From positions 1-45,769 of the IMG/VR virus record IMGVR_UViG_3300048026_001249: 45,769 nucleotides of DNA; one strand, given 5' to 3'. The first letter of the stretch is position 1; each line of letters opens with the position of its first letter. The notes beneath the pieces were generated by a model that saw only the letters and a program-made list of their open reading frames with translations, made no database searches and was not told the DNA's origin. Source of the stretch: a virus. The translations under genes and the position numbers were made by a program. Shown here piece by piece: positions 2,562 through 18,659 of the stretch.

Positions 2562-5500
2562 ATGGCATTCAATCTGAAAGAATATATCATCTATAGAAAT
2601 GAAGTTAAAAGAGAACTTTTTAACGGGGAAGTAGATGAAAACTTTAAAGCTGTAGCTAATCCATGGGTAGATAATAGAACATATGACGAAGGTCATATAG
2701 TATATCATCCTGTTGAAATAGTTGATGTTACTGGTGGAACTAGTGTTTCATCAGAAGCTTTAGCATGGTGGAGAGCAAATAAACGAACTACACAAGGTGT
2801 CTTTGAAACTAGTGAATGGGATTTAGTAGGAGGTATAGGTACTGGTGATTTAACTGTTACTGGTTCAAATAGCTTTGGAAAAATATTAGTTAATTATACT
2901 GGAGCAACACCATTATTACAATCAAACCCCGATGTCACTCTATCTTCTACAATTCCTAATGATACCTTTAGATTAATTGCAGGAGATGGTGTACAAATAC
3001 AATATGACTCATCCGTAAATGCAATTAAATTAATTAACACTTCTGCTGGTGGTGAAATAAACCAAGGATTAAATGTAGGTATAGGCGGACAAAATGTTTT
3101 TGCCGGAATGAGTGGTACTACATTAGAATTTAAAGGTATAAATACTTCTAATTCAACATCCGTTGTAGGAGAAGCATTAACAGTAGGTACTAATGTAGCT
3201 AATAAAAATGTAGTTATTAATTTTAATTCTGCTAACATAGAATTACAAACTTTAGATAATGGTCAACCTTTACTTAATTCTTTATATGATATAAATGCGC
3301 CTAACCCAGTAGCTTCTGATTTTTTACAATGGAATGGTACTAAATGGGTAAATGTAAACGCTGCATCTGCTGGATTGATTGGTGCACAAGGTGCTATCGG
3401 TTCACAAGGGCCTTTTGGGGTTCAAGGTTCACAAGGTGCACAAGGTTTTACTGGAGCTGATTCAACAGTACAAGGTCCAATTGGCGTACAGGGGAATACG
3501 GGTGTTCAAGGTGAGGAAGGTGTTCAAGGTGAGGAAGGTACACAAGGTGCTGCTTCAACTATTACAGGTCCGGCTGGTGCACAAGGTGCGCAAGGGACAG
3601 AAGGTAATCCTGGACCACAAGGTGCTGATTCAACAGTACAAGGACCGCAAGGTGTACAAGGTTTAAGTGGAGCCGATGGTTCTTTTGGTGGTGCCACGTT
3701 TGATTATGAATTTAATACTACATTAGCGGTAGCAGATCCAGGCTTTAGTTATGTTTCATTAAATAATCAAGGAGGATCACAAGATACATCAACTATTATG
3801 TGTATTAATGAAAGTGGTATAACTGGTCAATCCATTACTACTTTTTTACAAACTATATTATCTTCTACCTCAATACCTAAAGGTCATGTTAGAATATCTG
3901 CAAAGTCAGACCCAAATGAATTTATATTATTTCAAATAACTACATTAAGTCATGAACCAACAGGAACTCCAACTTACTGGGAATTAGATGTTGTACCTGT
4001 AGCTTCTACAGAGACCGATCCTTTTACAATGGATGAAGATGTATTATTATCTTTTGTTGTAACAGGTGATCAAGGGCCACAGGGACCACAAGGTGCAACT
4101 GGGCTTGACTCGGTTGTACAAGGCCCACAGGGTGCTCAAGGTGATCAAGGACCACAGGGTGCTGATTCAACAGTCCAAGGTGCAACTGGTGGTGTAGGTT
4201 CACAAGGACCACAGGGAGCACAAGGTAATGACGGTGTTGGGTCTCAAGGTAATGACGGTGCACAAGGCGCACAAGGTAATGAAGGCCCAGGTTCTCAAGG
4301 TGCTGATGGAACACAAGGTGGTGATGGTCCACAGGGTACACAAGGTTCAACTGGTGTTGGGGCTCAAGGTGCCCAAGGTGCTGATGGAATTGGATCTCAA
4401 GGTGCCCAAGGTACTGATGGGACACAAGGTTCAACAGGTTCTGTTAGCGGTACAGTTGCATACGGATCAATGCAAGATAATTTAAATAGTGCTGCTGTTT
4501 ATAATTTAACATCTACGCCTACAGGTTTATTATTGCCTCAAGGTGAATTAAATCAAATGGGGTTTGCAAATAGTGGAGGTGCACCGCAAGGTAATCTATT
4601 AGTAATTAATGCAGGTGAGGCTGGTAATTATAAAGCAACATTTACTTTATCTGGTGATGTAACTATAAGTGAACAGGTAGGTGCAGAAATTTTTGTTAAT
4701 GGTGTACCATATAGTGGTAATCAGAATGCAGTGGCTATAACTAATTTTACTGCAGGTTCATATTCTACTATTTCTATAAGTGATATATTAGATCTTAATG
4801 GTGGTGACTCAGTAGAAATAAGAATGTACTGTACTGCAAATACGGCACTCACACCTGCTAATGTAGGATTTATTTTAACTAAGCTTGTAGGTAATGGTGT
4901 ACAAGGTGCGCAAGGTGCTGACGGTATTGGGACACAAGGACCTGAAGGTTCAGGTACCCAAGGTGAAGAAGGTTCTCAAGGACCTGCTGGTTCAGGTACC
5001 CAAGGTGCCGGTGGTACTCAAGGTAATGATGGTACACAAGGACCACAAGGTGCCAATGGTATAGGTTCTCAAGGATCACAAGGATCAACAGGTACAGGTG
5101 CTCAAGGAGCCCAGGGTGCACAAGGTATACAGGGTGAGGATGGTACACAAGGATCAACTGGTACAGGTTCGCAAGGTAATGATGGTGTCCAAGGACCACA
5201 AGGTGAAGTTGGTACTACTGGTACCCAGGGAGAAACTGGAGTTGGCTCACAAGGTAATGATGGTGCACAAGGTGCACAAGGTGAAGTTGGTACTACTGGT
5301 TCACAAGGACCAACAGGTATAACACCATTAAATACAGGTTGTGAAGTAATACCACAAGGTGAAGTATTTGTAACTAATTCAACAATTGCTGGAACCTTTA
5401 CTATAAATAATTCAAATGCCGCTAGTGTTACTCAAGTGTTTGTAAGCAGCACATCATCAAGTACATTAGGTGCCGCTAATCTTAGTGATAGAATTTCGCT

Positions 5501-6446
5501 ATCACAATCAGATGGTGAATCTGATACATATTTTGTTAATAATGTTATATCAAACCAAGTAATGGGCGTATCATATATTGGTGGTTCTGGGCAAACATTC
5601 GCTTCATCAACCGATACTGTTTATTGTATTCAACCACAAGGACCACAAGGTACTCAAGGTCCTAATGGACCACAAGGTGCAAATGGTGTTCAAGGATTTC
5701 AAGGACCTGGCGGTCCACAAGGACCTGAAGGTTCAGGTACACAAGGAGCTGAAGGTTCAGGTACACAAGGTACACAAGGTCCTGCAGGATCTTCTGTGGA
5801 AGGTACTAGGATTGTAGTAGCAGAAGGTTCAATGCACGTGAGAGGTGGTTTACCTAGATATGACGCAGATCCAAACAACTCTACTTGGTTAGTATCTAAT
5901 GTCGGAAACACCGCCGCGGCAGTATCTGCTGGACTTGGGTGGGCTTCATCAGAATGGTCAGGTAATGTAGCAGGAGCTGGAATTATAGCAGGAGCTAGTG
6001 GCACAGATGATTTATTCTGGTTAATGCCAGCCGGCATAGTACTCCAACATAGTTATGTGGAGGGCGATAAGTTTACTTACAGAGCTACATGGACTTCACA
6101 CAGTACAGTACCGTTTGTATCAACAGCAAGAATAGGGGTTGCATTATTTAGATGGCAATGTTCAGGTGAAGTTTTAAACGGAGAAGGTACATGGGAACAG
6201 GTTTCTAATCAGGGTACGTCAAGCCAAATGGCAATTAGTAATATTGGCGATTCATTCGGTAGAGCCTATACATGTATGAATACTATTCTTACTATTTCAG
6301 CTGCAGCCGGAACTGGAATAAACAGATTTACTGATCGCTTAATGATAGGATATGCTACAAATGATAATACTTCTGAAAATGTAACTACAGCCTCTGATAT
6401 GGGATGTACTTGGAAGCTTATTGAAGGTGAAGATCAATCATTCTAA
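2562..6446 (+). CDS. Collagen-like tail fibre protein (1294 residues)
   Basis: A large modular fibre, probably a receptor-binding appendage. Residues 1-30 carry a VDENF motif of the kind seen at fibre attachment ends. Residues about 32-90 (NPWVDNRTYDEG, VYHP, WWRANKRTTQG, SEWDLVG) resemble a CBM5/12-type carbohydrate-binding module. Four collagen-like Gly-X-Y blocks follow, strongly biased to glutamine in the Y position (GAQGVQGPQG-like): about residues 273-376, 502-626, 778-918 and 1024-1076. They alternate with globular domains. The one at about 630-770 (NAGEAGNYKATFTLSGD, TPANVGFILTKLVG) looks like a C1q/TNF-type jelly roll. The last 210 residues form a separate tip domain with MHVRGG and CTWKLIEGED. 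Triple-helical trimerisation is expected from the family. No chaperone gene adjoins it, although a WavE glycosyltransferase lies 561 bases downstream. Receptor specificity is unknown. Confidence 0.88.
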   Translation: MAFNLKEYIIYRNEVKRELFNGEVDENFKAVANPWVDNRTYDEGHIVYHPVEIVDVTGGTSVSSEALAWWRANKRTTQGVFETSEWDLVGGIGTGDLTVTGSNSFGKILVNYTGATPLLQSNPDVTLSSTIPNDTFRLIAGDGVQIQYDSSVNAIKLINTSAGGEINQGLNVGIGGQNVFAGMSGTTLEFKGINTSNSTSVVGEALTVGTNVANKNVVINFNSANIELQTLDNGQPLLNSLYDINAPNPVASDFLQWNGTKWVNVNAASAGLIGAQGAIGSQGPFGVQGSQGAQGFTGADSTVQGPIGVQGNTGVQGEEGVQGEEGTQGAASTITGPAGAQGAQGTEGNPGPQGADSTVQGPQGVQGLSGADGSFGGATFDYEFNTTLAVADPGFSYVSLNNQGGSQDTSTIMCINESGITGQSITTFLQTILSSTSIPKGHVRISAKSDPNEFILFQITTLSHEPTGTPTYWELDVVPVASTETDPFTMDEDVLLSFVVTGDQGPQGPQGATGLDSVVQGPQGAQGDQGPQGADSTVQGATGGVGSQGPQGAQGNDGVGSQGNDGAQGAQGNEGPGSQGADGTQGGDGPQGTQGSTGVGAQGAQGADGIGSQGAQGTDGTQGSTGSVSGTVAYGSMQDNLNSAAVYNLTSTPTGLLLPQGELNQMGFANSGGAPQGNLLVINAGEAGNYKATFTLSGDVTISEQVGAEIFVNGVPYSGNQNAVAITNFTAGSYSTISISDILDLNGGDSVEIRMYCTANTALTPANVGFILTKLVGNGVQGAQGADGIGTQGPEGSGTQGEEGSQGPAGSGTQGAGGTQGNDGTQGPQGANGIGSQGSQGSTGTGAQGAQGAQGIQGEDGTQGSTGTGSQGNDGVQGPQGEVGTTGTQGETGVGSQGNDGAQGAQGEVGTTGSQGPTGITPLNTGCEVIPQGEVFVTNSTIAGTFTINNSNAASVTQVFVSSTSSSTLGAANLSDRISLSQSDGESDTYFVNNVISNQVMGVSYIGGSGQTFASSTDTVYCIQPQGPQGTQGPNGPQGANGVQGFQGPGGPQGPEGSGTQGAEGSGTQGTQGPAGSSVEGTRIVVAEGSMHVRGGLPRYDADPNNSTWLVSNVGNTAAAVSAGLGWASSEWSGNVAGAGIIAGASGTDDLFWLMPAGIVLQHSYVEGDKFTYRATWTSHSTVPFVSTARIGVALFRWQCSGEVLNGEGTWEQVSNQGTSSQMAISNIGDSFGRAYTCMNTILTISAAAGTGINRFTDRLMIGYATNDNTSENVTTASDMGCTWKLIEGEDQSF
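3382..3690 (+). repeat. Collagen-like coding repeat block 1
   Basis: Tandem 9-base units of the type GGTGCACAA encode Gly-X-Gln triplets. The block holds roughly 34 triplets and is interrupted by short variants such as GADSTVQGP. Confidence 0.85.
4066..4440 (+). repeat. Collagen-like coding repeat block 2
   Basis: About 40 Gly-X-Y triplets with recurring GNDGAQG, GADGTQG and GADSTVQG units. The nucleotide repeats are near-identical to those in blocks 1 and 3, so recombination between blocks could change fibre length. Confidence 0.85.
4896..5316 (+). repeat. Collagen-like coding repeat block 3
   Basis: The longest block, about 47 triplets. It includes two copies of a GNDG(V/A)QGPQ/AQGEVGTTG unit at about 5178-5223 and 5253-5300, suggesting recent internal duplication. 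Confidence 0.85.
5634..5790 (+). repeat. Collagen-like coding repeat block 4
   Basis: The shortest block, about 17 triplets, ending with duplicated EGSGTQG units just before the C-terminal tip domain. Confidence 0.8.
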
Positions 6447-6495
6447 TTAAACAATTTTAATTTTCTAAGTATAATAACTATAAAGGGATAATAGT

Positions 6496-6996
6496 ATGGA
6501 AAATACAGAAAACGAAAGACTTCAGTGGATTAAAGGTGATAAGATAGGTGTAGTAGAAACTTTAAATGGAATTGATGGTGAATGGACTACCTTTGAAGGA
6601 GGGGGTAGAATAGCAACAAATTTAATAAGCGAGTTTTTACAACCTATTGATGGAGAGCCGTTAAATTTTGATAATGCCTCACCACCTACACTTGCCTTAA
6701 AAAAGGCAGCCGAGGTTTATAAGGAAAAGATACCTACACAGGAAGTCACCACATCTCCAATAAGAACTCTATTTGACAAGCAGAAAAAGAATGATAAAAT
6801 AAAACTTAATCTTACATTTCCGATAGAACTTCCTAAAAAAGCTATATATGAAATTATTAGTTCTTCATTTGATTTAGATGAAGTTAATGATGAATTAGAA
6901 TCATTTATAAAAGATCAAATAAATGATGACTTAATTTATGACAGTCTTTTTGATAGCATTAAAGAGTTAATATCTTCAAGATATAAAAACGATTAA
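6496..6996 (+). CDS. Hypothetical acidic protein
   Basis: Not assigned to a function. The 166-residue protein has an N-terminal beta-rich half (WIKGDKIGVVETLNG, EWTTFEGGGRIATNLI). A proline-containing linker around residues 85-95 ends in SPIRTLFDKQKK. A helical acidic C-terminus follows (FDLDEVNDELESFIKDQIND). A layout with an SPI-x-x-L-x-x-KQKK-N linker before a lysine/leucine beta strand reminds me of conserved unknown proteins in T4-like marine phages, but I cannot verify this. An AAGGG six bases upstream of the ATG region is one of the few Shine-Dalgarno-like stretches in the window. It lies between the tail fibre and a glycosyltransferase, 11 bases before the latter, so the two are probably co-transcribed. 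Confidence 0.7.
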   Translation: MENTENERLQWIKGDKIGVVETLNGIDGEWTTFEGGGRIATNLISEFLQPIDGEPLNFDNASPPTLALKKAAEVYKEKIPTQEVTTSPIRTLFDKQKKNDKIKLNLTFPIELPKKAIYEIISSSFDLDEVNDELESFIKDQINDDLIYDSLFDSIKELISSRYKND

Positions 6997-7007
6997 TAAG
7001 TAACAGT

Positions 7008-7829
7008 ATGATTAATGAAAAGTTGGATCTTGTAATACAAGGTAAATATGATTCTTATGTTAGTGGCTTAATTGATCATTACTCAAAATTACCTTTCATT
7101 AATAAGATTATAATTTCTGATTTTGAAAATGGTGAAATACCTAAACTTAATAAAGTTATTCATGTTACATGCCCTATACCAGAAGACCCTGGTACAGGTA
7201 ATAGAAATTTACAAATAGCAACTTCATATAATGGCCTAAAGGCGGTTACTACTAATTATGCAATAAAGATAAGGTCAGATCAAAAATATTCACTTATATG
7301 TATGGAAAATATGTATAAGTTTTTTATTGAAAATAAAGAAAGAGAATTAACCTTTTATGAAGATTCATCAAAGCCTAAAAACAGCATTATAACAGGTGGC
7401 TTGTTTTCACCTTTCCCATTTCATCCTAGAGATCATATATTCTTTGGGCATATAGAAGACTTATTAGATTTATTTAATATACCTTATGAAACCCCTAACT
7501 TTACAAAGGTTTATGGTATAGCTAAAGAATATGAGTCTTGGCATTATGATAAACATATAAGAACAGAATCATATATAGGAACACATTATTGTTCTAACTT
7601 TAATAAAAAACTAAAACACTTTTTAAAATATCCTAAAGTATATTTACATGACGGTTCAATTAAAAGAGATTGGGCCATGAAAATAAGTAATGAAATTTCT
7701 CATAAAATTTTTAAGCCTGTACCTTCTAAATTTTTAGACCTTGAATGGCCAAAGTATGGGTGGGAAGAATACCGAGTAGACTCACAAAGAGATATTTTCG
7801 GAGAACGGTGGGCAGAAGATTTTGTCTAA
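7008..7829 (+). CDS. WavE-type glycosyltransferase
   Basis: Probable sugar transferase of the WavE lipopolysaccharide-synthesis family, which has a GT-A-like fold using nucleotide-sugar donors. Evidence: the N-terminal LDLVIQGKYDSYV strand-loop that begins such proteins; NRNLQIATSYNGLKA at residues 65-79, matching the family N-R-Q-I-x-S-x-x-G-L-K-A signature; and KIRSDQ at 87-92, where the acidic residue corresponds to the metal/nucleotide site. WHYDKHIRTESYIGTHYC in the second half is typical of the family's acceptor region. The length of 273 residues is close to normal and there is no membrane segment. In bacteria these enzymes decorate surface polysaccharide. In a phage the acceptor could be host surface glycans (superinfection exclusion) or a virion protein such as the neighbouring fibre. 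Function beyond glycosyl transfer is inference. Confidence 0.75.
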   Translation: MINEKLDLVIQGKYDSYVSGLIDHYSKLPFINKIIISDFENGEIPKLNKVIHVTCPIPEDPGTGNRNLQIATSYNGLKAVTTNYAIKIRSDQKYSLICMENMYKFFIENKERELTFYEDSSKPKNSIITGGLFSPFPFHPRDHIFFGHIEDLLDLFNIPYETPNFTKVYGIAKEYESWHYDKHIRTESYIGTHYCSNFNKKLKHFLKYPKVYLHDGSIKRDWAMKISNEISHKIFKPVPSKFLDLEWPKYGWEEYRVDSQRDIFGERWAEDFV

Positions 7830-13394: not shown

Positions 13395-14813
13395 ATGCCA
13401 ATAACAGATTTAGCAAATCAAAAAGTACCTGAAGGATTAAATGATCTAGCAGCTAACTTTAATAAATCATTTCCTAACAGTTATGATTTTGCAAAGACCT
13501 TTGTGCAGACGCCTTCATCTGCAGCAGGTGGTGGAAACGGTGTTACTAGTTTAGATGACCCTACTTATTTAGGTTTTAATATTAGATTTGATATACATAG
13601 TCCACTTTTTAACGGTGCTACTACAGGTAATCCTGCAATACCAGCAGGACAGGATCCTACTTCATTTGAAGGGGGTGATGCTGGTGAACAAGGTTCTCAT
13701 CCTGGTGGAGAATCAGCTGTAGGTTATTTAAATAAGTTAGGTGAGGTTACTAGAGCAACATACTTAAAGGCATTTATACAAGGGCTAAGAGAAATACAAA
13801 CAACAAGACCTTACTATTTTCAAACTATAGAAGGTTTACAAGAAGCATTTAATAAAACAGTTACAATGACTCCTTATGGTGGTTCTGCTGAAGGTGAAGG
13901 TATTACTGTTGGTTTATTAGAGGCAATTGATTTAAAAATGTCTGCATTATTTAATTTGTATAAATCTGCATGTTATGATGTAAAATATAGAAGAACACTT
14001 TTACCTATTAACCTTATGTATTTTACGTGTTATGTTGATGTTGTAGAAATTAGGAAATTTAAATCTGTTAGAAATTTTATAAATGCATTAAATCCTTTAT
14101 CACCTGATCCAGAGCTTAGTAAATTTGTAAATGACAATGCATCAAAGATAACATTAAGATTTGATGAATGTTTATGGGATGTTACTGCAAGTGGTCAGGT
14201 ATTTGCAAATGTTACAAACATACAAGGTGAACCTGGTAATTTTGCTACCTCATCCATGAAATGGAGTTATGGTGCAGTTGAAATACAATCACAGTTTGCA
14301 GGTTACGATTCGGCTTTAATAGATTCAGCGCCTAAACAACCAAAAACATTTGGTGATTTAGCAAAAGCAGCCGGTAAAAAATTATTAGATAAACAAGTAG
14401 CAGGTCTTGAAAATTTTGTACAGAGAAAGGCACTAAGTTTTGTACAAGGATTAAAGCTAGGTAATGTTTATGGTTTTATAAATAATGCTTTAAATGTAAT
14501 TAATAATCCACAAGGTTTATTAGGTACCTTACAGGGAGCTGCTGCACAAGAAGCTACAACCCCAGGATTCCAAGATAATATTGATTCTAATGTTTATGAA
14601 GGTGAATTGCCACCAGGCGGAAGTACCCAGACACTGGAATCTACTAACATTATGCCAGAAGGTGGTGATAGACCACCAATAACCCAAACTAATATATTTG
14701 GTACTGCCCCATCTGGACCAGCACCATTAGAACCTAGTAATATATTTGAAGGAGATATTCCACCAGGAGGTAGTACACAAAGTATAGAAAGTAGTAATAT
14801 ATTAGAAGATTAA
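13395..14813 (+). CDS. Baseplate/tail-tube-associated structural protein
   Basis: A 472-residue virion protein inside the hub operon. Its central part (residues about 60-300) has features of a tube-initiator fold: YLGFNIRFDIHSPLF, ALFNLYKSACYDVKYRRTLLP, a strand pair LMYFTCYVDVVEIRKF, then ITLRFDECLWDVTASGQV and MKWSYGAVEIQSQF. It resembles tube or baseplate initiator proteins in overall order, but I cannot assign it to gp48, gp54 or another specific member. Residues 310-390 are helical and amphipathic (GLENFVQRKALSFVQGLKLG). The C-terminus carries two near-identical repeats, EG(E/D)(L/I)PPGGSTQ(T/S)(L/I)ES(T/S)NI, with a degenerate copy between. The next gene starts 3 bases after the stop. 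Confidence 0.55.
   Translation: MPITDLANQKVPEGLNDLAANFNKSFPNSYDFAKTFVQTPSSAAGGGNGVTSLDDPTYLGFNIRFDIHSPLFNGATTGNPAIPAGQDPTSFEGGDAGEQGSHPGGESAVGYLNKLGEVTRATYLKAFIQGLREIQTTRPYYFQTIEGLQEAFNKTVTMTPYGGSAEGEGITVGLLEAIDLKMSALFNLYKSACYDVKYRRTLLPINLMYFTCYVDVVEIRKFKSVRNFINALNPLSPDPELSKFVNDNASKITLRFDECLWDVTASGQVFANVTNIQGEPGNFATSSMKWSYGAVEIQSQFAGYDSALIDSAPKQPKTFGDLAKAAGKKLLDKQVAGLENFVQRKALSFVQGLKLGNVYGFINNALNVINNPQGLLGTLQGAAAQEATTPGFQDNIDSNVYEGELPPGGSTQTLESTNIMPEGGDRPPITQTNIFGTAPSGPAPLEPSNIFEGDIPPGGSTQSIESSNILED
14598..14801 (+). repeat. C-terminal PPGGSTQ repeat pair
   Basis: Two 54-base units at 14598-14651 and 14748-14801 encode EGELPPGGSTQTLESTNI and EGDIPPGGSTQSIESSNI. The proteins match at 13 of 18 positions while the DNA has drifted, which suggests selection on the peptide. 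A partial third copy (ITQTNIFG) lies between them. Confidence 0.75.
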
Positions 14814-14816
14814 TAA

Positions 14817-15734
14817 ATGGGAAAGTTAACGACAAAAGACTTAAAGGATGATAATCTAAAAGGTACTCAATGGATAGGTATTGTTGAAGATACTGAAGAT
14901 GATATTTTTGAAGGGAGATGTAGAATTAGAGTTTTTGGAAAAATGGATCAAAGAGAAGATCCTGAAGATCCACAAAGCGCATACTTAATGCCAACTGAAT
15001 CTTTACCTTGGGCAAGACCGTCGGTTGCTTCTTCAGGTGGAAGTAACACTGGGAGTGGTACATTTTCAGTACCTAAACTCGGCACTGTATTAAGAGTAAC
15101 TTTTGATAACGGTAATTATTATTCTCCCGTGTACCATGAGTCCCTATACCCTTCTGATGAGACGAAGGCGGAGATAGAGGCTGCTTATCCTAACTCACAT
15201 GTATTAATATATGATACAGCTTTTGGTTTAACAGGTGACTTACAATCAGGTAACCCTGAAGTAACAAATGAAAGAGAAGGCGAACACATTAAAGTTTTCT
15301 TTACAGAGGAAAAGGGATTAATGATGGATTATACTACAACTGAAGGTCCAACAACTATTAATGTAAAGCCTGATAATTCGGTTCATATTATTAATGCCAA
15401 TGGAGATTCTATGGTAATGCTTAATGATGGTAATATAACATTTACTCATTCTGCTCAGTTTACAATTAATAGTGGAGCTGATACTGTAATTAATGCAGAT
15501 ACTAATTGTCTTATTAATTGTGTTGATGCTGTTATAAGTGCTACTGGTAAAACTCATGTAAATTCTCCTAAGATTATTTTAGGAGAGACTGGTACTGATG
15601 CTGTACTTAAAGGTACTCAGTTTATCAATGATCTTTATAATAACCATACTCATATTGGAAATCATGGAGCACCAACTAGTCCGCCAATGGCACCAGGAAA
15701 TCCTGCATTAAGTACGAAGAATACTACTGACTAA
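14817..15734 (+). CDS. Baseplate central spike (gp5/gpV-like, no lysozyme domain)
   Basis: The membrane-piercing needle at the tail tip. The N-terminal OB-fold spans about residues 15-120: QWIGIVEDTEDDIFEGRCRIRVFG, then LPWARPS, SVPKLGTVLRVTFDNGNYYSPVY. A beta-helix-type repeat follows at about residues 165-265, with short valine/isoleucine/asparagine strands (TINVKPDNSVHIINANGD, NGDSMVMLNDGNITFTHS, FTINSGADTVINADTN). T4 gp5 has a lysozyme domain between these parts; here there are only about 45 residues, so no muramidase is present. Near the C-terminus H277-T-H279 in YNNHTHIGNHGAPTSPP resembles the HxH iron-binding apex described for P2 gpV-type spikes. The gene follows a tube-like protein and precedes a small unknown gene, a usual place for tip proteins. 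Confidence 0.85.
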   Translation: MGKLTTKDLKDDNLKGTQWIGIVEDTEDDIFEGRCRIRVFGKMDQREDPEDPQSAYLMPTESLPWARPSVASSGGSNTGSGTFSVPKLGTVLRVTFDNGNYYSPVYHESLYPSDETKAEIEAAYPNSHVLIYDTAFGLTGDLQSGNPEVTNEREGEHIKVFFTEEKGLMMDYTTTEGPTTINVKPDNSVHIINANGDSMVMLNDGNITFTHSAQFTINSGADTVINADTNCLINCVDAVISATGKTHVNSPKIILGETGTDAVLKGTQFINDLYNNHTHIGNHGAPTSPPMAPGNPALSTKNTTD

Positions 15735-15764: not shown

Positions 15765-16058
15765 ATGCCATTAGTACCATCAATAATATTAGCAGCTATG
15801 GACTCAGCATTTGTTGCAGGAATCACTGCAATGGAGGCAGCTGCTCAGACTAACATAGACAATTCAAAGGAAATAGTTACTGAAACTGAAATTAAAGCAG
15901 CAGGAGGAGCGGCCTTTGCTGCTATAGCAGGGCCTGCTATCGATGCATACATAAGATCACAAACTTTAATTGTACCACCAGGACAACTTGTAGTGGCACC
16001 ACCACCGGCAGGTGCTGGAGCAACCACATCACCATCTCCACCAATTATTCCTGTATAA
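15765..16058 (+). CDS. Small alanine/proline-rich protein next to the spike
   Basis: Unassigned 97-residue protein. Residues 1-35 are hydrophobic and alanine-rich (SIILAAMDSAFVAGITAMEAAAQ), then comes a helix FAAIAGPAIDAYIRSQ. The C-terminus VPPGQLVVAPPPAGAGATTSPSPP is proline- and glycine-rich. Small genes immediately after gp5-type spikes often encode tip (PAAR-like) or spike-associated proteins. The Pro-Gly-rich C-terminus might recall PAAR, but the zinc-binding histidines and cysteine of PAAR proteins are absent, so that is not claimed. It might also be a small membrane-active protein; the hydrophobic N-terminus is too rich in charged breaks for a clear transmembrane helix. Confidence 0.6.
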   Translation: MPLVPSIILAAMDSAFVAGITAMEAAAQTNIDNSKEIVTETEIKAAGGAAFAAIAGPAIDAYIRSQTLIVPPGQLVVAPPPAGAGATTSPSPPIIPV

Positions 16059-16108: not shown

Positions 16109-16118
16109 AATATATAAT
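16109..16118 (+). promoter_or_regulatory. Putative promoter, AATATATAAT type
   Basis: AATATATAAT sits in the 87-base spacer before the S1-like gene, 37 bases upstream of the ATG at 16146. The rest of the spacer (16059-16145) shows no other structure I can support. Confidence 0.35.
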
Positions 16119-16145
16119 CTATAATCACGCTTTAATAAAAAATAA

Positions 16146-17318
16146 ATGACTGAACAAGAAATAACCGTACAACTAAGTGACGATCCATTTGACACAAAGA
16201 CAATAAAGGTACAAGTACCGAAGGGAACTAAATTATTATGTACTGAAATGTATGCTGCTGATGTAATGAAAATGTATGATTTAGCAGATGAAGAAATTAA
16301 AAGATTAACTTTATCTGAAGAAGCTAATAATTATATTACACAAGGAGAAATTACATATATTAAAACCAGGAAAGATATAATTGATGGCGAAGAAGTTGAA
16401 GTTAAAGTAGAAGCCTTGGTTGATATTTCAAAAAAGAATACTGCTGTTTGTATTTTAAACAAAGAATCTAAAGAAATCGTTGATCAATTAGAAGTTGGTA
16501 TGATGGTGGATATTAAAGTAAAGAATTCTAAACAAGGAACTTTATATGCTTCCATCAGTGATGCAATGGATGAAGTAAAACGACAAGAAATTTATAATGC
16601 TATAGGAGATAAGACTATAGGATTTACTGGTAAAGTAAAGGAACTTATACATGGTGGTTACTGGGTAGACGTTGGTGGAGTTCAATGTTTTATGCCAGGT
16701 TCACTAGGAGGTTTAAATAAATTAACTAACTTTGAAAAACTTGTAGGTAAAGAATTAATTGTAATGCCTATAACATATTCTAATGAAAAACAAACAATTG
16801 TAGTATCTCATAGAGAATACTTAAGAACGATGATTCCTTCTGCGGTTGAAAATCTTAGAGAAAATATTAAAGAACATATTACTGGTATTGTAACAGGGGC
16901 TACAAAATTTGGTGTCTTTGCTGAATTTAATGAATGCTTAACAGGTCTTATTCCAAAAAATGAATTGGGTGAAGAAACATTAGAACTATTTGATAAAAGA
17001 GATATTAAACCAGGTGATAAGATAAGTTTTTGGGCTAAAGAAATAATTTCAGAAAGAAAAATTATTTTATCTCAAGCAGGTCCTAAAATAGATTTATGGG
17101 ATGGTGCCGACGAAAAGTATAAACCTATGATGGTTACTGAAGGTAAAGTTACTAAAGTTACTAAGTACGGTGCATTTGTTGAATTAGAAAAAGGCATTAG
17201 TGGCCTAGTACATAAAACTAAATTAAAGAATATTGAACTTAGTAAAGGTGATACTATTAATGTTAAGATTGGAAGTGTTAATGTTAGTGACCGAAAGATT
17301 ACCATGAACTTAGTATAA
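16146..17318 (+). CDS. Ribosomal protein S1-like RNA-binding protein (tandem S1 domains)
   Basis: A 390-residue protein built of S1/OB-fold RNA-binding domains. A 65-residue N-terminal region is followed by a degenerate repeat at about 66-138. Clearer S1 domains lie at 158-226 (GFTGKVKELIHGGYWVDVGG, CFMPGS), 244-312 (HITGIVTGATKFGVFAEF, LTGLIPKNEL, PGDKISFWAKEI) and 328-390 (MVTEGKVTKVTKYGAFVEL, ISGLVHKTKL, KGDTINVKIGSV). Bacterial S1 has four to six such domains and recruits mRNA to the 30S subunit. A phage copy could steer ribosomes to phage messages that lack Shine-Dalgarno sequences, compete for host S1 functions, or act in RNA stability. It is embedded among baseplate genes, so it would be made with late proteins. 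The fold assignment is firm; the role is inference. Other S1-domain proteins (PNPase, RNase E) are excluded by the lack of catalytic domains. Confidence 0.85.
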   Translation: MTEQEITVQLSDDPFDTKTIKVQVPKGTKLLCTEMYAADVMKMYDLADEEIKRLTLSEEANNYITQGEITYIKTRKDIIDGEEVEVKVEALVDISKKNTAVCILNKESKEIVDQLEVGMMVDIKVKNSKQGTLYASISDAMDEVKRQEIYNAIGDKTIGFTGKVKELIHGGYWVDVGGVQCFMPGSLGGLNKLTNFEKLVGKELIVMPITYSNEKQTIVVSHREYLRTMIPSAVENLRENIKEHITGIVTGATKFGVFAEFNECLTGLIPKNELGEETLELFDKRDIKPGDKISFWAKEIISERKIILSQAGPKIDLWDGADEKYKPMMVTEGKVTKVTKYGAFVELEKGISGLVHKTKLKNIELSKGDTINVKIGSVNVSDRKITMNLV

Positions 17319-17360: not shown

Positions 17361-18659
17361 ATGTATTCTAACGAACAACTTAATGCTATACATTCTTCAA
17401 AGATAGGTTTTGAATTTGAGTTCTTTTCAAATGAAAATCTTGACCTCACTAAGGATGGTTTAAGCAGGGCTTTAAACAAGAAAATCAGAATAGAGGAAAA
17501 GGCACATAGTGACTTTGCTCCAACAGAAGATACTTTTAAATTAGAACCAGATAATTCCGGTGGAACTGGAATGATAGAATTGGTAACTGGACCTTTACCA
17601 TTCGTTGAAGCTAAATTAGTTATGGCTAAAACATTAAAATGGATTAGGGAAAACGGAAAGACTAATGAAAGATGTTCTATTCATATTAACATTGCATTTG
17701 ATGGAAAGAAACTAGGTCCTATTGTTAATATGTCAAAATTAGATGTAGGTAAATTTGTACTTAATTTTGATGAAAGCAAAGTATATGAAGCTTTCCCAAA
17801 TAGAAAAGATTCTGTTTATGCAAAATCAATAAAATTTATTGTACCTTTGAGTGGAATGACTCAACCATCACCAGAAAAAAATCTTTGGAAAAACTATATG
17901 TTTGTTAAAGAGAAGTATTATGGTATTAATTTTGAGAAGCTACAAAAAGGCTATATTGAATTTAGATATCTTGGTGGTGCTGATTATGAAAAGAAGTATT
18001 CTACAATACTTTCAATGACCGAGCATTTTATTACTTCATTATATGAAACGTTAGTTAACCCACAATATAACGAAACAGATTTAAAAGTTTTAGATAAGAT
18101 TTTAGAAAAACATAAAACTGTTATTGAATCTTACCGAACATATTCTTCGTTTAAAGAAAAGTTTCCGAACATTCATTTAATGATTGACCTCCAAACATAT
18201 GATCAAATTGTTGAAATGTATTATCCTAAAATTAGAGAAAAGATTTTTGATTTAATTACAAAGGCTGATATGAATGAAGGTTTAATTAATTATGATGCTG
18301 ATACTGGTAGAATGCAAATAAAGGATGCCAAATTAATGAGGTGTTTTGAAATAAGCGGAGTTGATATTGTAGATTCTGTTATTCAAGGTAACATAGTTAA
18401 CTGTGATATCTTTGGTTGTGATTTAAAGAATGCATCTGTATTTGAATCAAATCTTTTTGGTGCCACTGTAGCTGAAGATTGTAAAATAGAAGAATCTTAT
18501 GTAAGTAGAAATGTTGTATGCCAGGACAGTTATGTATTTGGTAAGAGAGGAGTTTTTAGCGGAGAAATGATTGGTGGCATTTTTAGACATGGGCGAGCAA
18601 CAAAACTTGCAAGGTTTGGTGATAAAACCGAAGTAATAGAAATAGAAAAAATTAAGTAA
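17361..18659 (+). CDS. Amidoligase-like enzyme with C-terminal pentapeptide-like region
   Basis: A 432-residue protein. The N-terminal 300 residues carry the hallmarks of the glutamine-synthetase-fold amidoligase family (COOH-NH2 ligases): GFEFEF at residues 16-21 (metal/ATP-binding glutamates), ELVTGPLPF at 73-81, CSIHINIAF at 105-113, and YIEFRYLGG at about 198-206. Members join a carboxylate to an amine using ATP, for example in peptide modification or cell-wall and virion cross-links. Residues about 322-397 (ISGVDIVDSVIQGNIVNCDI, GCDLKNASVFESNLFGATV, CKIEESYVSRNVVCQDSYV) have five-residue periodicity typical of a right-handed beta-helix or pentapeptide-repeat solenoid. It lies between the S1-like gene and a structural gene (4-base gap). 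The substrate is unknown. The catalytic assignment rests on motif order and would need structure-based comparison. Confidence 0.65.
   Translation: MYSNEQLNAIHSSKIGFEFEFFSNENLDLTKDGLSRALNKKIRIEEKAHSDFAPTEDTFKLEPDNSGGTGMIELVTGPLPFVEAKLVMAKTLKWIRENGKTNERCSIHINIAFDGKKLGPIVNMSKLDVGKFVLNFDESKVYEAFPNRKDSVYAKSIKFIVPLSGMTQPSPEKNLWKNYMFVKEKYYGINFEKLQKGYIEFRYLGGADYEKKYSTILSMTEHFITSLYETLVNPQYNETDLKVLDKILEKHKTVIESYRTYSSFKEKFPNIHLMIDLQTYDQIVEMYYPKIREKIFDLITKADMNEGLINYDADTGRMQIKDAKLMRCFEISGVDIVDSVIQGNIVNCDIFGCDLKNASVFESNLFGATVAEDCKIEESYVSRNVVCQDSYVFGKRGVFSGEMIGGIFRHGRATKLARFGDKTEVIEIEKIK

Follow-up and report, generated by a model that had tools for sequence, protein, structure and literature searches.

A gene lying among the baseplate and tail genes of a T4-like phage (16146..17318, + strand, an open frame with an ATG start) encodes a 390-aa homologue, with domains OB1-OB4, of bS1, the ribosomal protein that brings mRNA to the ribosome, and its product is probably a bS1 substitute which, late in infection, attaches to the 30S subunits of the host. 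The observations behind this proposal are homology to bS1, the order of the domains, the docking and RNA-pocket residues, the position of the gene, a promoter-like box, a companion bS21 gene and purifying selection, from which we infer that the protein binds the 30S subunit, displaces host bS1, is made late and prefers phage mRNAs. In the mechanism that we envisage, a phage lineage of bS1 cut down to OB1-OB4 would be expressed late, driven by a late-type promoter of its own within the module of tail genes. OB1 would dock on uS2 of the 30S subunit of a Bacteroidota host, replacing or competing with host bS1, and OB2-OB4 would then recruit and unfold the A-rich phage mRNAs which lack Shine-Dalgarno (SD) sequences. 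The phage bS1 would probably work together with a phage bS21, its neighbour at the mRNA exit channel.

The window, by which we mean the whole stretch of DNA analysed (45,769 bases), is the complete IMG/VR record IMGVR_UViG_3300048026_001249, classed as linear and most likely a fragment of a virus genome; its relatives are fragments as well, the longest relative contig fetched being 83.6 kb. The virus is T4-like. For its baseplate and tail genes the nearest isolate relatives are phages of Prevotella, Tenacibaculum, Chryseobacterium and Flavobacterium, together with Sphingomonas phage PAU. Because of the kinship with phages of the first four genera, and of the aromatic residue at the Tyr54 position of bS21 described below, we consider that this marine phage probably has a Bacteroidota host.

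Pfam recognised two S1 domains above its cut-off, OB3 (16869..17078, +), which is also seen in the AlphaFold2 model, and OB4 (17127..17315, +), which gave the strongest match. The 390-aa protein matched E. coli bS1 directly (phmmer, 1.7e-27), and a profile alignment to the same protein (5.8e-39) paired residues 62-387 with residues 18-341. In an alignment to solved structures, everything after roughly residue 58 of the phage protein runs in parallel with residues 17-344 of E. coli bS1, which span OB1 to OB4; the identity to bacterial bS1 is about 25%. The AlphaFold2 model, built on an alignment of 29 relatives, consists of four OB barrels linked by helices (mean pLDDT 73; pTM 0.36, a value to be expected if the linkers are flexible), and its top PDB match was 9gut_B, bS1 in a 30S mRNA delivery complex (E 1.6e-22, 369 columns). 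Both the OB1-OB2-OB3 collinearity and the GG(F/Y)...FxPGS signature of bS1 OB2 are present in the phage protein. The ribosome-docking domain OB1 (16326..16556, +) is degenerate and was delimited from the collinear alignment and the model, and OB2 (16617..16811, +) carries the motif GGY...CFMPGS, in which Y172 and F182 align with E. coli F120 and F130. These domains are preceded by an N-terminal leader (aa 1-60; 16146..16325, +) with a predicted beta hairpin at residues 2-24 and helices at 37-45 and 48-59, residues 48-61 having a pLDDT <50, and OB5-OB6 are missing from the protein.

The first-pass annotation had read three clear and one degenerate S1 domain in this gene and proposed structure prediction and comparison with S1 as checks; both bear it out, giving four S1/OB domains with OB1 as the degenerate one, bS1 as the closest structure and no RNase or other enzyme domain. 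RNase R, PNPase and other S1-domain enzymes were ruled out, as Pfam, AlphaFold2, PDB and NCBIfam comparisons revealed OB folds and a short N-terminal leader only, with no catalytic domain. Among the NCBIfam models those of bS1 ranked first, yet their scores lie far under the equivalog cut-offs (123.8 bits vs 577 and 136.5 vs 624, for TIGR00717 and related models), which counts against our proposal, and we therefore name the protein a bS1 homologue and not an rpsA equivalog.

In E. coli, bS1 is anchored to the ribosome by an N-terminal helix (F5, F9), by K43 in the zinc pocket of uS2 and by F79, while OB2 residues K117, F120 and F130 line the mRNA (PMC10123108). The E. coli sequence used for residue mapping is consistent with the residue numbers published in PMC10123108. 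The equivalent of K43 in the phage protein is K97 (codon 16434..16436, +), and this position is a lysine in 82/82 IMG/VR relatives, in 51/51 bacterial bS1 sequences and in six of the seven members of the giant-phage panel (window included), Lak being either an exception or misaligned. Among the 82 phage relatives the F130 position is always Phe and the F120 position always Tyr, and the F5 position is Tyr in 81. Two positions count against our proposal: that of F9, which is Met, Leu or Ile in 81/82 relatives, and that of K117, which is His in 80/82. A candidate uS2-docking helix (aa 36-45; 16251..16280, +), predicted as helix over residues 37-45 and with Y36 aligned to E. coli F5, was not recognised by sequence in the window protein, as the score of a helix HMM made from bacterial S1 was not above shuffles and is not significant in the window subfamily, which likewise counts against our proposal; for the giant-phage relatives LR745206, LR756501 and LR756504 the same HMM scored higher than any of 300 shuffles. 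Read from these alignments, OB1-OB2 and the key lysine are kept and the docking helix appears to have diverged. The earlier view, in which the protein lacks its N-terminal ribosome-binding part, is thus mostly wrong: OB1 and OB2 are present, as are the lysine of the uS2 pocket and the aromatic residues of OB2, and only the uS2-docking helix is unrecognisable by sequence in the subfamily. With these docking features of OB1-OB2 conserved, the corollary that the protein merely competes with host S1 loses weight.

Phage proteins which block host machinery are common, and the least improbable rival to our proposal, although an unlikely one, is that this protein is a decoy or inhibitor, binding mRNA or blocking uS2 without supporting initiation and so shutting down host translation, as the absence of OB5-6 and the apparent divergence of the docking helix might suggest. 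Against this, OB1-OB3 are the minimal functional core of E. coli S1, OB4 stimulates this core and OB5-6 are dispensable (PMC3858243), so that OB1-OB4 should suffice for function. Moreover, the RNA-pocket residues are conserved in a gene under strong purifying selection (dN/dS 0.06-0.14 against close relatives), and a location among late structural genes fits the promotion of translation, not its blocking.

If the phage protein is a bS1 substitute, as we favour, it would have a partner in phage bS21. The latter is absent from the 45.8-kb window itself; the contig of locus L005, which overlaps the window at 99.97% across the 13,170 bases compared and was taken as the same virus, encodes a 66-aa bS21 on the same strand, 21.6 kb upstream of S1, beside a tRNA-Gln and a PNKP-phosphatase-like gene, a neighbourhood which suggests a tRNA and RNA repair cluster. 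In L225, likewise of this virus, the bS21 gene next to tRNA-Gln and the PNKP-phosphatase-like gene lies at 6242-6531, which puts the suggested cluster about 5.4 kb to the left of the window. The Pfam score of the L005 protein is at the cut-off (27.4 vs 27), and those of bS21 from relatives are higher. All ten close-clade contigs with 22 kb or more of sequence ahead of S1, this virus included, have bS21 19.8-22.3 kb upstream, and a sister-clade contig has it 25.8 kb upstream of S1; it was not found in two divergent contigs, L084 and L086. These bS21 proteins carry an aromatic residue at the Tyr54 position (KAVYIQ), which in Bacteroidia stacks on the anti-SD sequence (PMC9976891, PMC9723584). 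Giant-phage relatives encode bS21 in four of six cases and IF3 in three of six. As bS21 is located in the tRNA/RNA-repair region and not beside S1, the two proteins may not be co-expressed, which counts against our proposal. In freshwater Bacteroidetes phages, bS21 is transcribed alongside structural genes (PMC9723584).

An S1 protein may also act away from the ribosome, and it is similarly unlikely, ranking just behind the decoy, that this one is an RNA chaperone or mRNA stabiliser which coats A-rich late transcripts: OB3 and OB4 are typical RNA-binding S1 domains, and free S1 shields RNA from RNase E (PMC10123108), but such a role leaves unexplained the invariant uS2-pocket lysine in OB1, the OB2 aromatics and the companion bS21. 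A bolder form of the substitution model, which we advance only tentatively, is that bS1 on uS2 and bS21 over the anti-SD pocket form a matched phage pair which could rebuild the mRNA-exit platform of the Bacteroidota ribosome; the resulting ribosomes, specialised for the phage, would give preference to its A-rich late mRNAs in a host hardly using SD pairing.

Relatives of the S1 protein are encoded at no fewer than 181 viral loci, which is far beyond chance expectation, and the gene neighbourhood is markedly constant. The first-pass annotation had placed the gene in a baseplate context, and this was confirmed, with a gp5-like baseplate hub/spike gene upstream (14817..15734, +, by homology) and gp25- and gp6-like wedge genes downstream; the function of the immediate 3' neighbour is unassigned. 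This neighbour, a conserved 432-aa protein (17361..18659, +), has a homologue directly following S1 in 83/83 contigs fetched and is also present in LR756500, a 462-kb phage with the same gene order around S1. It had no match in Pfam. Some of its motifs recall, we presume, those of amidoligases, and homologues occur in six giant-phage records, mostly away from S1. The recognised gene upstream of S1 was either the gp5-like spike or a small ORF (15765-16058 in the window), save in two contigs which end there. A scan of genome contigs with the phage S1 alignment found no relative, and so gave no sign of a copy in a prophage or host.

Such a constant place among baseplate genes at 83/83 loci, together with the OB folds known in phage baseplates (Phage_base_V), could point to a virion or baseplate structural protein made of OB folds. 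We consider this very unlikely, given that sequence and fold are specifically those of bS1, that in four other giant phages S1 adjoins other genes of the window virus group, away from these baseplate genes, and that S1 is missing from isolates which share these baseplate genes. Least probable of all is a role as cofactor of a phage endoribonuclease, a use that T4 RegB makes of host bS1 (PMC9409239) and that a T4-like virus might share, as no RegB family match was found in 11 relatives, albeit in a search without a positive control, which makes this weak evidence.

Within the tail-gene module the bS1 gene appears to have its own promoter. A box reading ATATATA(A/C) or ATAAATAAAA occurs 21-36 nt before 11 of the 37 window genes, against a mean of 1.33 in dinucleotide shuffles, none of which (0/500) reached 11, and at only 3/1131 other ATGs. 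The starts which it precedes are 1960, 2562, 7872, 9529, 13395, 15765, 16146, 17361, 19588, 32175 and 43331. To our reading the box resembles a T4-type late promoter, and it probably serves as such in this group of phages. The copy belonging to S1 is ATATATAA (16110..16117, +), 36 nt before the ATG, and since the whole family keeps this promoter-like box ahead of S1, late expression of S1 is likely. Directly before the start codon lies an A-rich leader without SD (16133..16145, +), conserved in relatives.

The earlier observation that start codons in the window mostly lack SD sequences holds, as a core SD was found at 3/37 starts vs 2.45 in shuffles. What does not hold is the argument built on it, that S1 is present because the starts lack SD. 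The anti-SD sequence is hidden in Bacteroidia ribosomes (PMC9976891), and four Bacteroidota T4-like isolates which have the same baseplate genes, and in which both S1 and bS21 are absent, showed a 5-mer SD at 0/121 starts, with leaders equally rich in A. A distantly related T4-like Rhizobium phage, whose host uses SD, had SD at 44% of starts vs 16% when shuffled, and 14 S1-bearing contigs had a weak 4-mer SD excess (7.2% vs 2.7%) and no 5-mer excess. As S1-negative Bacteroidota phages are equally SD-less and the Rhizobium phage does use SD, the absence of SD tracks the host; as those phages manage with the same starts, mRNAs of this kind can do without S1, a further point against our proposal. 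We therefore drew no conclusion about the function of S1 from the lack of SD. Nevertheless, the broader idea of a phage-supplied S1 which favours late mRNAs survives without it, drawing on the bS1 identity with its docking residues, the late-type box, the place in the structural module and the companion bS21. In vitro, the bS1 of F. johnsoniae raises initiation twofold on one mRNA without SD (PMC9976891).

The phage S1 is, by phylogeny, an old phage lineage. Twelve phage S1 proteins, which range from those of Lak and >634-kb phages to those of the marine family, group in a single clade (support 100) outside 51 bacterial S1 proteins, and the support is still 100 without Lak; the window S1 falls in this clade with those of LR756500-504, LR745206 and Lak phages. 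Such a deep clade, outside all sampled bacterial S1 sequences, rules out a recent capture from the host. AU tests on the bacterial source of the clade gave p 0.52 with Bacteroidota and 0.47 with Proteobacteria. Three public 'phage' records, CAKLQH020000011.1, MT835643.1 and MT839544.1 (loci L092-L094), carry rpsA of the usual bacterial kind and seem to stem from bacterial contamination.

Phage bS1 was reported in 2020, when Al-Shayeb et al. described possible rpS1 proteins in huge phages (PMC7162821), and what we add is the docking residue, the pairing with bS21 and a reason to drop the SD argument. Those proteins belong to the same clade as the window S1, their genomes likewise have few SD sequences, and Bacteroidetes hosts were predicted for Lak and for the S1 phages with genomes >634 kb (PMC7162821). 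That study tied S1 to missing SD, whereas in the window group missing SD follows the host, and the published correlation is confounded by host in the same way. For the window family the uS2-pocket lysine and the bS21 pairing are documented. The window is a 45.8-kb fragment. With bacterial bS1 (E. coli rpsA; 9gut, 6bu8) the phage form shares collinear OB1-OB4, the K43 equivalent and the OB2 aromatics, and differs from it in having no OB5-OB6, an apparently diverged docking helix, an identity of about a quarter and scores far below the equivalog cut-offs. The bS21 of freshwater Bacteroidetes phages is also a 30S-platform ribosomal protein with a position in the structural module, for which late substitution into host ribosomes was proposed, but those phages were reported without other ribosomal protein genes (PMC9723584), whereas the window virus has bS1 and bS21 together. 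The nearest annotated relative, of Virus NIOZ-UU157 (A0A7S9STL2), is 68% identical, in the same length class and annotated only as an S1-motif protein. Microcystis phage PhiMa05 also encodes a bS1, which from its description is set apart from the window S1, being grouped with host-like Vampirovibrionia S1 and accompanied by five other ribosomal proteins (PMC13157829).

That viruses may re-equip host ribosomes with proteins of their own has so far been argued mostly from bS21. The S1 family brings in a second platform protein, with a docking residue that looks intact, in phages whose hosts ignore SD, and translation in vitro is already possible with a system from Flavobacterium. Set beside the S1-negative relatives, the published argument also loses force, as the host explains the missing SD in S1-bearing huge phages.

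Elsewhere in the window, 2562-6446 encodes a 1294-aa tail-fibre-like protein with collagen-like repeats, and 7008-7829 a WavE-like lipopolysaccharide synthesis domain (Pfam, 1.8e-10) inside the phage tail region. The product of 13395-14813 has 56% identity in the contig of locus L042, vs 83-93% for most flanking proteins, and is perhaps a tail or baseplate protein in contact with the host.
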